A DNA stretch of 20,328 nt from a virus. The stretch spans positions 1-20,328 of the IMG/VR virus record IMGVR_UViG_3300029319_000674. One strand, 5' to 3'. Shown here piece by piece: positions 1 through 20,242 of this stretch. The notes under the pieces were generated by a model. The model ran no database searches. It was not told the origin of the DNA and saw only the letters and a program-made list of their open reading frames with translations. Numbering within the stretch: the stretch's first letter is position 1; each line of letters starts with the position of its first letter. The position numbers and the translations under genes were made by a program.

Positions 1-352
1 TTTCAACGTGAGTTGAGTCGTGTCCCCAAGTAAATAAATCATTGTCAAAAGCTAAATCTAAACGAAAGGCAGTAACACTAGCTCCGTTATCATCAAGTGT
101 AACAGCTATTGTCATTACTGAATCTCTCCAGGCATCAAAGTTATTATTTTTATATGCAACACCTACAACAGCATTAGATGTATTCATCCCTGTGGTGTCA
201 TCAGCTAAGTAACCTCTTAGTTTAAAGGTTTCTGAATCTCTCCACCAGAACTTTGGTGTTGTGTATTCTCTGCTCTGCATAAGTCTGATAATGGGAGTTT
301 GTGCTTGAACCACACTCATAACCATTAACAGGCTAAGTAACAATTTACGCAA
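1..352 (-). CDS. Exported protein of unknown function, 5' part only (runs off the left edge)
   Basis: The reading frame is open from a TTG at 350-352 to the window edge (117 codons), and its stop lies outside. The start is supported by a GGAG seven bases upstream of the TTG and by the N-terminus it gives: MRKLLLSLLMVMSVVQA, with two positive residues, a hydrophobic core and a likely signal peptidase I cut after QA. The mature part has WW and W-R-D motifs and a stretch near residues 85-110, TAFRLDLAFDNDLF, that faintly recalls the strand pattern of cohesin-like beta domains; that resemblance is too weak to assign. It follows the structural genes on the same strand after a 108-base gap. A Sec signal peptide is unusual among virion genes, so the product may act in the host envelope or periplasm. 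Function is not recognised. Confidence 0.75.
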   Translation of the reverse strand, partial: MRKLLLSLLMVMSVVQAQTPIIRLMQSREYTTPKFWWRDSETFKLRGYLADDTTGMNTSNAVVGVAYKNNNFDAWRDSVMTIAVTLDDNGASVTAFRLDLAFDNDLFTWGHDSTHVE

Positions 353-7650: not shown

Positions 7651-8994
7651 TTAATCACCTGCTCCTACAACTTCGATACAAGCTGGTAATGACACCGTAC
7701 TTGTTTCATTTTTAGTATCTATTTTTAAACTTACACCTACACGAGAGTTAAAGGCTTGTAAAGCAATTGTTACCTCACTACCATTAGTTTTATCTCTATC
7801 GATTACCTGTAACCCAGTAGCCGGAGGATTCTGAATAGCTATTTTGTTATTGTTGTTAGTAAACTTTTCCCACTTTCCGTCGCTGTTCCAATCATATCCA
7901 TAAAATGTCCAAGTATAGGTTGTCGAAGTGTTTGGTTTACTTGAAACACTTTTTAATGTTATAATATCACCTTTTCCATAAGCAGGAACATCCATAGTGT
8001 TTTCATTGAGTTTTCTAATTACGTTTACATTACCTTTTCCTTCTTGATGTCCTATCACCTGACCTAACATAGCCCCATAATCACCATCATATCCTTTTTC
8101 ACGTAAAAATTCTTCTGTTGGATAACCATCTTTAAAAATATCAAATATTTTTTTGAATGAAGTATCACCTCTTCTACGTGTAGCTTGACTTTCGTCTGAT
8201 ATTATAAAGTTAGCTTGTACAATTTCACTTTCAACCTCACCTCCTATTTCAGCTCCTGTCGTACCGTCAGCTGCGGGAGGAGGGGGTAAAAATCTTTCAA
8301 TGTATGAGTTGGGTAAATAAACATAACCTCCTACTAAACTTTGAACATTTTTAAACCTACTGGTTAGTCCTGATAACTTCATTCTAAGTGAATTTCTTTT
8401 TGTTGAATCACCATCAGATATAAACTCGGCATCATTATTGATTTGAACTTTTTTTCTTATAAGTTGACTATCATTAAAATTATCTTTGTATTCATTATCT
8501 TTAATGTTTTGAGAAATAAGACGAACTTCATTTCGAGAAGGTGATATTTCTTGAATAGGATATTTGTTTTCTTTTAGAAATAAAGGATATGACGCATCTG
8601 AATGTTGAGCTCCTGACATAATACTACCATCAGACATCGTATGAAACTCACCTCTGTACACTTTACCTGCAGAGTCAACTAAAAGTGTTTCGTTTGAACC
8701 TGCGGTCTTTCTAAAAAAATTAAATTTAACATTAAATTTACCTCTGTCATATCCCATCTTTCTGAGTATTGTTCCTGTTTTGATTTTGATTCCATCTTGT
8801 CCTCTATTTTCATAATCTGAAGAATCAACAACACCTGACTCTAAAAAATTTTCGCCAGAATAAACAAGAACTTCAACATAGTCATTGGAGTTTGAACCAA
8901 ACTCACCTCCTAAATAGGCATACTTTTGACTACTCAAATCAATCACTTGATTGGTGTTAAGTAAATCAGAATCTTTTTGATTTAATCTAGCCAT
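7651..8994 (-). CDS. Tail/baseplate-associated protein, C-terminal Ig/PKD-like region
   Basis: This 447-residue soluble protein begins MARLNQKDSDLLNTNQ and has a strand-rich N-terminal half with YLGGEFGSNSNDYVEV and YDRGKFNVKFNFFRKT. A Pro run (PPPP, near residue 237) separates the two halves. In the C-terminal part, TTYTWTFYGYDWNSDGKWEK followed by strands recalls a PKD- or Ig-like fold, common as accessory domains on phage tails. Its ATG overlaps the stop of the gene upstream by one codon and it ends two bases before the 1438-aa gene, so it belongs to the same transcript and probably the same structure. No specific T4 counterpart is recognised; the assignment as structural rests on context. 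Confidence 0.65.
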   Translation of the reverse strand: MARLNQKDSDLLNTNQVIDLSSQKYAYLGGEFGSNSNDYVEVLVYSGENFLESGVVDSSDYENRGQDGIKIKTGTILRKMGYDRGKFNVKFNFFRKTAGSNETLLVDSAGKVYRGEFHTMSDGSIMSGAQHSDASYPLFLKENKYPIQEISPSRNEVRLISQNIKDNEYKDNFNDSQLIRKKVQINNDAEFISDGDSTKRNSLRMKLSGLTSRFKNVQSLVGGYVYLPNSYIERFLPPPPAADGTTGAEIGGEVESEIVQANFIISDESQATRRRGDTSFKKIFDIFKDGYPTEEFLREKGYDGDYGAMLGQVIGHQEGKGNVNVIRKLNENTMDVPAYGKGDIITLKSVSSKPNTSTTYTWTFYGYDWNSDGKWEKFTNNNNKIAIQNPPATGLQVIDRDKTNGSEVTIALQAFNSRVGVSLKIDTKNETSTVSLPACIEVVGAGD

Positions 8995-15374: not shown

Positions 15375-15405
15375 AAAAAAGGGAAGTTTCGGCTTCCCTT
15401 TTTTT
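15375..15405. terminator. Bidirectional intrinsic terminator between convergent genes
   Basis: GGGAAG (15381-15386) and CTTCCC (15393-15398) form a perfect stem with the loop TTTCGG; six A before and seven T after extend the pairing to twelve base pairs and give a T run on both strands. It lies between the 73-aa gene on the plus strand and the end of the polymerase gene (15408) on the minus strand, where both converge. This is a classic arrangement and the call is firm. Confidence 0.9.
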
Positions 15406-15407
15406 GT

Positions 15408-17111
15408 TTATAGTAAATGTGAGACTTCTATGTAATCAGAATTGAATTGAGGTTTTCGTAATCCACAACCCTCTACAAATGTCCATTGTTTTCCTCCTCT
15501 GAATATACTTTTGTCAATAATCAAATCTTCAAATTTATTATTGTCAACTCCTATACTCATCAAAACTAATTTCTTTTTATATCGGTATATTGTTCTTGTG
15601 TTTGCTACTAAACCTGAGAAGTAAGTTACACCTTGAGAATCTTCACAACCAAAATCTTTTGAAAGAAAGTCAGGTGAGTTCCACCATCCTGTTTTTTCAA
15701 ATTGTTGTATAGGTGTACCTTGTACTTTGTTATATAGATAATTACCCGCAAGAATATTCTGACGAGGATGTACCCATTTTCTATAACTTGAATGACAATG
15801 TCTAAGAGTAGCTTCCCAAAATCTTTGAGGTTCTCTTGACTTCCAGTAAGCTAAAGCCCATACTAATTGTCCGTAAGCTAAAGCGTGTCCCCTACAATAA
15901 GAATATTTGGGTGAGTGTCGTAACTCTTTTAATATATCTGCTTTCTCAACTGAACCTTTTCGATTTTGTAGTTGAGCCATAAATTCACTAATCACGTTAG
16001 GAATCTGTTTACTAAATCCTCTTCTGTAATAATCAGCTTTATCTAGTGAACAATCAACACTATCAGAAATATATTCTATAGCATCTTCATCTGTAATTAT
16101 ATGTCTTCTGTTTTTTTCTTTTCGTAAAAAAGCTGCCTTACGACCTCCGTCAGCAGCTGCTGGTCGTATCAGAGCTAAAGCAAGAGCTACATCATATACA
16201 GATTTAGGTTGTAGAGCTAAAATACACTTTCTCATAGTTCTACTTTCACTCTGAGTTAGACCTAATACTTCACCTCTACACAACAACTCTGATGCCTGTT
16301 TGTCAAATGGGTCATAGTCGGCTATCGGTTTATCAGATAACTCCCACAACTGAGAAAGACCTCTGTTACACAATAAATCTATTTTGATTAAGTTTTGTTC
16401 CTCAACATCATACTTGTCTAATATGATTTGTTTTTTTTCTTCTTTCAACCATAAGTCTTCAGGTACTTTATCATTAAATACTATGAGACCACCACAATGT
16501 AATGACCATTGTCTTTGTTTTCCCATCAATGATTTAGCATAAGTTTTTACATCTCTTCGTACAATAGGGTCAGGAAATATTTTGTCTAACTTGTAGTTTC
16601 TAGGTAAAAACTTTCTATGTCCAAACTTTCTGATAGCTTCTCTCATAGCACTTTTAGGTTTGTACATAACTTTATTACTGATACGAGCTACTTTACCAGG
16701 ATGTTTCTCGTGAAACTCCTCAATCAATCCATCACGTGTCCAGTGTGGTACATCTAAGTCAATGTCAGGTTGAGTATCACGACAAAAATTCATAAAACGT
16801 GTCAAAGGTATTTTTTCTTTGATGGGATTTATATCACTAATACCGAGTTGATAACACACGAGAGATGAAGCGGCTGAACCTCGTAATACGTGAGGAATGT
16901 TTTTATCTTTAATAATATCTAATAAATCACATACTCTATGAAACGTATTTATGAAACCCTTTTCTTCAATTATTTTATATTCTTTATCAAGTCTTCGTAT
17001 GTAATTTATATCTGTTGGATAGGCACGGCGAAATCTTCGGATAAGCGCCTTAATATCCTTAGAGTATTTTTTATCTAATAGACTTATTTTTAAATCACTA
17101 TTCGATAACAC
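15408..17111 (-). CDS. Compact DnaE-like (family C) DNA polymerase lacking the PHP domain
   Basis: The 567-residue product matches the Pol III alpha catalytic core. Palm: VLRGSAASSLVCYQLGISD (75-93) and PDIDLD (115-120), with D118 and D120 matching E. coli D401 and D403; the third acid is D245 in LIKIDLL. Other core segments are KPKSAMREAIRKFG (151-164), HCGG (205-208), LTQSESRTMRK (285-295), LALIRPAA (312-319), DKADYYRRGFSKQ (367-379) and HALAYGQLVWALAYWKS (409-425). Residues 503-560 look like the C-terminal OB fold. The N-terminal PHP domain (about 270 residues), the usual helix-hairpin-helix expansion and the tau-binding domain are missing, so it is half the usual size. The start is GTG with AAAGG five bases upstream. 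All three catalytic acids are kept, so it should be active; T4 itself uses an unrelated family B polymerase. Confidence 0.85.
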   Translation of the reverse strand: MLSNSDLKISLLDKKYSKDIKALIRRFRRAYPTDINYIRRLDKEYKIIEEKGFINTFHRVCDLLDIIKDKNIPHVLRGSAASSLVCYQLGISDINPIKEKIPLTRFMNFCRDTQPDIDLDVPHWTRDGLIEEFHEKHPGKVARISNKVMYKPKSAMREAIRKFGHRKFLPRNYKLDKIFPDPIVRRDVKTYAKSLMGKQRQWSLHCGGLIVFNDKVPEDLWLKEEKKQIILDKYDVEEQNLIKIDLLCNRGLSQLWELSDKPIADYDPFDKQASELLCRGEVLGLTQSESRTMRKCILALQPKSVYDVALALALIRPAAADGGRKAAFLRKEKNRRHIITDEDAIEYISDSVDCSLDKADYYRRGFSKQIPNVISEFMAQLQNRKGSVEKADILKELRHSPKYSYCRGHALAYGQLVWALAYWKSREPQRFWEATLRHCHSSYRKWVHPRQNILAGNYLYNKVQGTPIQQFEKTGWWNSPDFLSKDFGCEDSQGVTYFSGLVANTRTIYRYKKKLVLMSIGVDNNKFEDLIIDKSIFRGGKQWTFVEGCGLRKPQFNSDYIEVSHLL

Positions 17112-17132
17112 TAAAACCTTTCATTATGTTAG

Positions 17133-17225
17133 CGGCGACGGATAGGAATCGAACCTACCTGTAATATCAACTACTACACTACGGTGTTGAAGACCGAGGA
17201 GAGCACCAGCTACTCAATCGTCGCC
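17133..17225 (-). tRNA. selC: tRNA with anticodon UCA and selenocysteine-tRNA architecture
   Basis: This 93-base gene folds with the features of bacterial tRNA-Sec. The acceptor has seven perfect pairs (GGCGACG with CGTCGCC) plus an eighth A-C position, stacked on a five-pair T stem, as in the 8/5 fold (alternatively 7/6). The D arm has a six-pair stem with one bulged T and a four-base TGGT loop. The anticodon loop CTTCAAC gives UCA, which reads UGA. The variable arm is long, with seven pairs closed by GTTGA. The T loop is TTCGATT and the discriminator is G. No CCA is encoded (CTA follows). The anticodon loop and T arm closely resemble E. coli selC. It lies five bases after gp55 and 21 before the polymerase gene, on the same strand, so it is probably cut from their common transcript. 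A serine-charged UGA suppressor is the alternative. Confidence 0.78.
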
Positions 17226-19039: not shown

Positions 19040-20242
19040 TTAAAAGAAATTGTGTGTTGAATTTGTAGGTTGTTTTTTAGTATTACTCATTTTCATATAA
19101 AGTTGTTTATATGATTCGAATACTCTTGAGGGGTCTTCACTCTTGACCATATCATCAATGGACCTCAATACTTTATATACTTCACTATCTACTGCTTGTT
19201 TCAGTATATAATCGTGTCCATAAATTAGTTCAGTTACATTTCTGATAGCATCTTTAAACACATAGAAGTTATGTAATCTCATTCCCATAGTACATTGAGT
19301 GTTCCAGTCAGCTACATCTTTCCAAGAAACAAGTCCTCTAAGTACATCATCAAAAGCAGTCATACGAGGCCAATCTTGATTAGGTGTTTCTCTAAACCAC
19401 TCTATAATGTCAGGATTGTGTTTTTCACTTGGAAAGTTGATTGATTCAAATGTGGCTTTCTTTATACTAAATCGTGTGTAATATGTACCAAAAACGACAG
19501 CTCTGTCAGGAGACGAACTATCAGTCGTTACAACAATATTGGAACCAATATCCTCAAGTGATTTCTGTAATTGAATCAACATCAAGAAGTCTCTGATTTT
19601 AGAAGTACCAAGAATGTGAAAGTATTCATTACGAGGATTCAAGTGTTCTTTACCTTGTAACAGAGCATGGACACCTGACATAAAACGATAAAGACTACCA
19701 CCAGCACCTCCGATACCCCAACCATTGAAATCAAAATCTTTGACTTGTTCATACCAGTGTTTGTAAGTGTGTTCGTCATCACCTTGTACTACATTCAAGA
19801 ACTTTGTAGAACCATCTTGTTTTGATTGAAAGTATTTAAAGTTATCAATACTAACATCTAAACATTCGTGAAACTTACCTTCATTCTTTAAACGAGGAGG
19901 TAAATCTAAGTTCATAGCCACATCAGTATTTTCTGATAACCAGTTGAAGATTTTATCTCTGTATTTTAAGTCCCATTTGAGAGCTCCAGATGCGAACTGA
20001 AATCCTCCTGAATCACCCATAACAAGATTTCTATCAGTAAGTCCCATTTTGTTTTTATAATCTTTTACTGACATATGTGCTCCAGCTGTAATCAATAATT
20101 GATTGTGTTGAAACTCTTCAGGAAATTCTTCACTATAAAATCGTATCGTCATATCATTTCTGAAACGATGGTCTTTTACAAAGTTAGAACCCATCTCACC
20201 AGCTGAGAATGAAGGAAAATAAATAAAATTAGTTTTAATCAC
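19040..20242 (-). CDS. dpdA: TGT/DpdA-like 7-deazaguanine transglycosylase
   Basis: This 400-residue protein shows the TGT-superfamily sequence of motifs: GDSGGFQF (residues 76-83), matching the DSGGYQ active-site motif of tRNA-guanine transglycosylase; NLDLPPR (111-117); FLNVVQGDDEH (148-158), matching the V-Q-G motif; WGIGGAGG (175-182), matching the GG substrate loop; and VTTDSSSPDRAV (238-249), with D241 as the probable second catalytic Asp. The TGT zinc site (CxCxxC and His) is not visible. Phage members of this superfamily, DpdA, insert 7-deazaguanine derivatives into DNA and protect it from host restriction. tRNA modification is the alternative. The synthesis genes (folE, queD, queE, queC) are not in the window. 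The start is GTG with GGTGG upstream, overlapping the end of the preceding gene. Confidence 0.72.
   Translation of the reverse strand: MIKTNFIYFPSFSAGEMGSNFVKDHRFRNDMTIRFYSEEFPEEFQHNQLLITAGAHMSVKDYKNKMGLTDRNLVMGDSGGFQFASGALKWDLKYRDKIFNWLSENTDVAMNLDLPPRLKNEGKFHECLDVSIDNFKYFQSKQDGSTKFLNVVQGDDEHTYKHWYEQVKDFDFNGWGIGGAGGSLYRFMSGVHALLQGKEHLNPRNEYFHILGTSKIRDFLMLIQLQKSLEDIGSNIVVTTDSSSPDRAVVFGTYYTRFSIKKATFESINFPSEKHNPDIIEWFRETPNQDWPRMTAFDDVLRGLVSWKDVADWNTQCTMGMRLHNFYVFKDAIRNVTELIYGHDYILKQAVDSEVYKVLRSIDDMVKSEDPSRVFESYKQLYMKMSNTKKQPTNSTHNFF

Follow-up and report, generated by a model that had tools for sequence, protein, structure and literature searches.

The 20,328-base IMG/VR fragment analyzed here (the window) carries at 17133–17225 a complete, genuine bacterial-type gene for selenocysteine tRNA (tRNA-Sec), maintained across several related phage species. 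It appears to belong to a lineage of uncultured marine myovirus-like phages, in which it would be a functional item of a small, variable tRNA cassette. In the reading that we consider likely, the phage tRNA feeds the selenocysteine synthesis of its host during infection, and this host is probably a member of Ca. Neomarinimicrobiota (Marinimicrobia).

ARAGORN returned a single tRNA for the window, a tRNA-SeC with anticodon TCA on the minus strand (17132–17225), and the Rfam family RF01852 gave a full-length match at 17225–17134 (63.8 bits against a gathering threshold of 47, E = 3.8e-11). No other Rfam family reached its gathering threshold anywhere in the window, leaving no competitor to the Sec assignment. 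Both results confirm an earlier sequence-only reading of this DNA, which had called a complete tRNA-Sec of 93 bases with a UCA anticodon. That reading had also described 13 stacked acceptor and T-stem layers, a six-pair D stem with one bulge and a four-base loop, and a seven-pair variable arm. The same structure was recovered by unconstrained folding, where the minimum-free-energy and centroid folds agree on a cloverleaf whose acceptor and variable arm have 7 bp each and whose D and T stems have 6 bp each. The folding energy is −35 kcal/mol (z = −3.44), and only one of 200 shuffled sequences was as stable. The G discriminator that had been proposed is indeed present, at 17133 (Table 1).

Table 1 Features of the tRNA-Sec locus in the window.
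Feature	Position	Strand	Details and basis
tRNA-Sec gene	17133..17225	minus	93 nt including the G discriminator, CCA not encoded; ARAGORN, Rfam, fold, covariation
Anticodon UCA (reads UGA)	17188..17190	minus	ARAGORN; no variation among phage copies
D arm	17199..17215	minus	6 pairs, one bulged U, loop UGGU; compensatory changes at three pairs
Long variable arm (class II)	17160..17178	minus	7 pairs; fold and covariation
T arm	17141..17159	minus	6 pairs in the window phage; 13 layers with the 7-bp acceptor
Conserved 243-aa phage protein	17231..17962	minus	Upstream of the tRNA in all relatives; labeled gp55 in the sequence-only reading
DnaE-like DNA polymerase core (567 aa)	15408..17111	minus	Lies as an insertion between tRNA-Sec and the terminator of the operon; lacking in G071 and G010
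Terminator-like hairpin	15375..15403	minus	Directly after the tRNA cassette in relatives lacking the DnaE-like insertion; sequence comparison

The determinants of bacterial tRNA-Sec are a 13-bp acceptor domain, a 6-bp D stem with a 4-base loop for SelA, and a class II variable arm for SerRS, while Sec-specific features of the D arm and acceptor domain reduce EF-Tu binding (PMC7609411). All of these determinants are present in the window tRNA, which resembles the bacterial selC genes of RF01852 in its UCA anticodon, 13-layer acceptor domain, 6-bp D stem, 4-base loop, long variable arm, and G discriminator, and differs from them in being phage-borne. Its T stem has six pairs and position 8 is unpaired, giving a 7/6 rather than an 8/5 arrangement, which is partly shared by the chromosomal relatives. 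The resulting A8–C85 mismatch and the missing CCA had been flagged as oddities, a judgment that did not hold up against chromosomal genes. No phage copy pairs position 8, but the same is true of 32 of 44 distinct Marinimicrobia selC genes and 30 of 31 other bacterial selC genes compared, so that the 8/5 split cannot tell members from non-members, and several Marinimicrobia selC genes likewise do not encode CCA. Both features are thus ordinary and neither is a defect.

The gene upstream of the tRNA, coding for the 243-aa protein, has many relatives in IMG/VR, and 16 other related records were found to carry tRNA-Sec. The tRNA scored above the Rfam cut-off in 14 of 50 records; G071 adds one case and a pattern match one more. 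In every carrier among 80 related contigs examined, the tRNA immediately follows the same ~243-aa gene. Seven distinct phage copies retain pairing in 95.8% of pair cells, with changes on both sides at nine of the 31 pairs (16 cells); none of 500 shuffles reached this level and sliding the partners gave far lower scores. When three phage copies were aligned with four Marinimicrobia chromosomal copies, 14 pairs were changed on both sides. The UCA anticodon and the D loop are invariant in all phage copies, a G-U pair in the T stem is common to all seven sequences, and the sixth T-stem pair, intact in the window copy, is broken in two others. No degenerate copy was found among those read. The fold and anticodon are therefore kept in relatives, and the compensatory changes together with the constant anticodon indicate a maintained gene.

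The distribution of this gene is nevertheless patchy. On a tree of the upstream protein, the presence of tRNA-Sec requires five changes, at least three of them forced by well-supported branches, meaning that the gene has been repeatedly gained or lost. Most relatives of the phage lack it, hence it is dispensable in the wider group. In a tree of the tRNA-Sec sequences themselves, the phage copies cluster together (SH-aLRT 91) and not within Marinimicrobia, although the alignment has too few columns for the tree to place the donor.

The site is a variable tRNA cassette between the conserved ~243-aa gene and an intrinsic terminator, where related phages carry tRNAs for Ala, Glu, Thr, or others, with or without Sec; a tRNA-Cys is located elsewhere in some related contigs. 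The sequence-only reading had placed the tRNA between two core phage genes, which is correct for the 243-aa side, conserved in relatives, but not for the DnaE-like side. In G071, which is 98% identical on both flanks, the tRNA-Sec runs straight into the terminator hairpin, so that the DnaE-like gene is an insertion of ~1.7 kb and not a core gene. This gene matches the DnaE core only, with no recognizable PHP domain. In some phages, the insertion (15404–17126 in the window) is placed precisely between the tRNA and the terminator, and the relatives G045 and G046 carry the DnaE-like gene at a different place. The label gp55 given to the 243-aa neighbor could not be confirmed, as the protein had no PDB match and, in one member only, a weak PHROG match to a late sigma factor (E = 0.14). 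An integration scar at a host selC gene (att-site scar), already dismissed by the earlier reading, was ruled out because the gene is complete and sits within a variable tRNA cassette, amid phage genes whose order is collinear among the contigs compared.

Other genes of these phages were noted. A TGT-like protein (weak match, possibly of the DpdA type) is encoded at 19040–20242 of the window, and FolE, QueD, and QueE genes are nearby in G006 (44368–46945); this combination suggests a 7-deazaguanine modification of the phage DNA. A relative without tRNA-Sec (G035, 48965–51682) encodes a TonB-dependent-receptor-like protein with plug and carboxypeptidase-regulatory domains, which is unusual for a phage.

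To identify the host, a pattern derived from the phage tRNA was searched against 84,980 species and found in Bacillaceae, some Actinomycetota, others, and three Ca. Neomarinimicrobiota genomes. Among chromosomal tRNAs, the most similar one came from a marine Marinimicrobia genome (78% to the phage copy in L010), and a 21-nt segment of its D arm is identical to that of the window. The phage tRNA-Sec can be aligned with Marinimicrobia selC across 92 columns with one gap. Since the search pattern was built on the D arm, this likeness is only suggestive. Within the phylum, tRNA-Sec scored above the RF01852 cut-off in 127 of 199 genomes and SelA above its cut-off in seven of the 12 tested, with SelA and SelB as neighbors in G073 and G074. 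Collinear phage contigs occur in two of 245 Marinimicrobia assemblies, at identities of 58% and 38%. SelA was not found in the assembly holding the closest of them (G313), which is possibly incomplete. The protein searches for the host phylum covered Marinimicrobia genomes, and taken together these sequence comparisons make Ca. Neomarinimicrobiota the likely host phylum.

Secreted and outer-membrane proteins of the phage bear on the same phylum. A 942-aa secreted protein is encoded in part in the window (2–352, minus strand; full copy in G010, 25527–28355), and its last ~100 residues, which look like a type IX sorting domain, form the C-terminus that matches Marinimicrobia. This C-terminal domain occurs in 241 of 244 Marinimicrobia genomes. 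Next to the secreted protein, G010 encodes a PorV/PorQ-family protein (28425–29330; NCBIfam NF033709, 92.2 bits against 90). Both proteins are thus of kinds that occur in Marinimicrobia.

Three uses had been put forward from the sequence for a tRNA of this kind: supporting host selenocysteine use, making a phage selenoprotein, and suppressing UGA. The last, in which serine or selenocysteine would be inserted wherever phage or host has an ordinary UGA codon, draws on the UCA anticodon and on the suppressor tRNAs that recode UGA in other phages (PMC12386605). Here UGA works as a normal stop, ending nine of the 53 G006 genes and 11 of the 45 in G318, mostly with a further stop soon after, and neither frame scanning nor alignment with relatives revealed a UGA-interrupted gene in ~100 kb of the clade and close relatives. 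This makes recoding of UGA unlikely, and the tRNA moreover keeps the Sec-specific D-arm and acceptor features that lower EF-Tu binding (PMC7609411), leaving suppression the least probable reading that we considered. Hardly more probable is a host selC that was captured and has been retained to no advantage; its patchy spread, with at least five state changes on the upstream-gene tree, would fit such a history, but the compensatory pair changes and the lack of degenerate copies among those read argue against it.

A selenoprotein of the phage's own, encoded in a part of the genome that was not recovered, would explain the selection on the tRNA seen in its compensatory changes, and much of the genome is indeed unseen, the largest contig with tRNA-Sec being 51 kb where the genome of the related Immutovirus spans 160 kb. 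G045, a related contig that lacks tRNA-Sec, also encodes a small glutaredoxin-like protein with a CPGC motif, and proteins of this type can be selenoproteins elsewhere. However, no relative of this protein was found in the tRNA-Sec clade, and no UGA-to-Cys alignment on the coding strand or plausible UGA-interrupted frame was found in G006, G010, G031, G001, and others. The UGA/Cys alignment matches examined were antisense or out-of-frame artifacts, bar one degenerate frame in G034. Genome walks with kinase and helicase genes reached G318 (47 kb) and G319, both 93% identical to G006 in the overlap, and these held no selenoprotein either. We thus regard a phage selenoprotein as quite unlikely, and the more specific proposal that the lineage depends on selenocysteine, through a selenoprotein needed for infection and encoded in the unrecovered part, as slightly less probable again. 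A somewhat better case, though still an unlikely one, can be made for a cassette that makes up for host tRNAs lost in the infected cell to anticodon nucleases or RNA decay of the host. Sec shares its cassette with tRNA-Ala, tRNA-Glu, and tRNA-Thr, while some contigs have tRNA-Cys elsewhere, and the idea that phage tRNAs counter tRNA-depleting defenses is a published one (cited in PMC10747093). On the other hand, neither a nuclease nor a tRNA repair gene was recognized in the vicinity, and the phage genes seen so far do not need tRNA-Sec. Such replacement is compatible with support of host selenocysteine use and may be one cause of it. Among the three proposed uses, host support is by inference the most plausible, suppression being disfavored and no phage selenoprotein having been found in the ~100 kb of fragments.

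Phage tRNA-Sec genes have been reported twice before. In 2018, tRNAscan-SE predicted a tRNA-SeC in Basilisk-like Bacillus phages, then called the first in bacteriophages (PMC6145125); there too the gene lies within a phage tRNA cluster, in phages unrelated to ours. In 2023, three huge wastewater phage genomes were described with tRNA-Sec genes (PMC10747093), which in the accessible portion of that paper appear as list entries without conservation or covariation analysis, both of which are available for the present case. The evidence of selection is stronger here than what was seen in either report. No close relative of the window tRNA-Sec was found in named phage records. The nearest named relatives by the 243-aa and baseplate proteins are the Flavobacterium Immutovirus phages, Microcystis phage Mel-JY01, and LR756508, a 484-kb metagenomic phage, and no tRNA-Sec scored above the cut-off in their full records. 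By the polymerase, too, LR756508 ranks with the nearest named relatives. The IMG/VR scan gave further tRNA-Sec candidates among the matches listed. One of these sequences (L149, in G058, 8313–8411) scored 64.3 bits, over the Rfam cut-off, in an unrelated viral contig of 11 kb that has 16 tRNA genes.

The likely host phylum has selC, SelA, and SelB, which makes a tRNA that feeds the host pathway the best reading, and because the recognition features of SerRS, SelA, and SelB (PMC7609411) are kept, entry into the host selenocysteine pathway is the simplest model. The tRNA would be transcribed during infection with the upstream operon, and host enzymes would process the transcript and add CCA. Host SerRS would then charge it with serine and host SelA convert this to Sec-tRNA, which host SelB would deliver to UGA codons bearing a SECIS. 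The benefit to the phage would most likely be sustained selenocysteine insertion in a Sec-using host at times of shrinking host tRNA pools or growing demand, and making good a loss of host tRNA is a plausible reason for it.

Codon usage is the usual explanation for phage tRNAs, but it cannot apply to a tRNA reading only UGA with a SECIS. As the gene also shows compensatory changes across several phage species, it offers a particularly clear case in which to test why tRNAs are carried by phages, and its maintenance suggests that selenocysteine synthesis is important while abundant marine bacteria are being infected.
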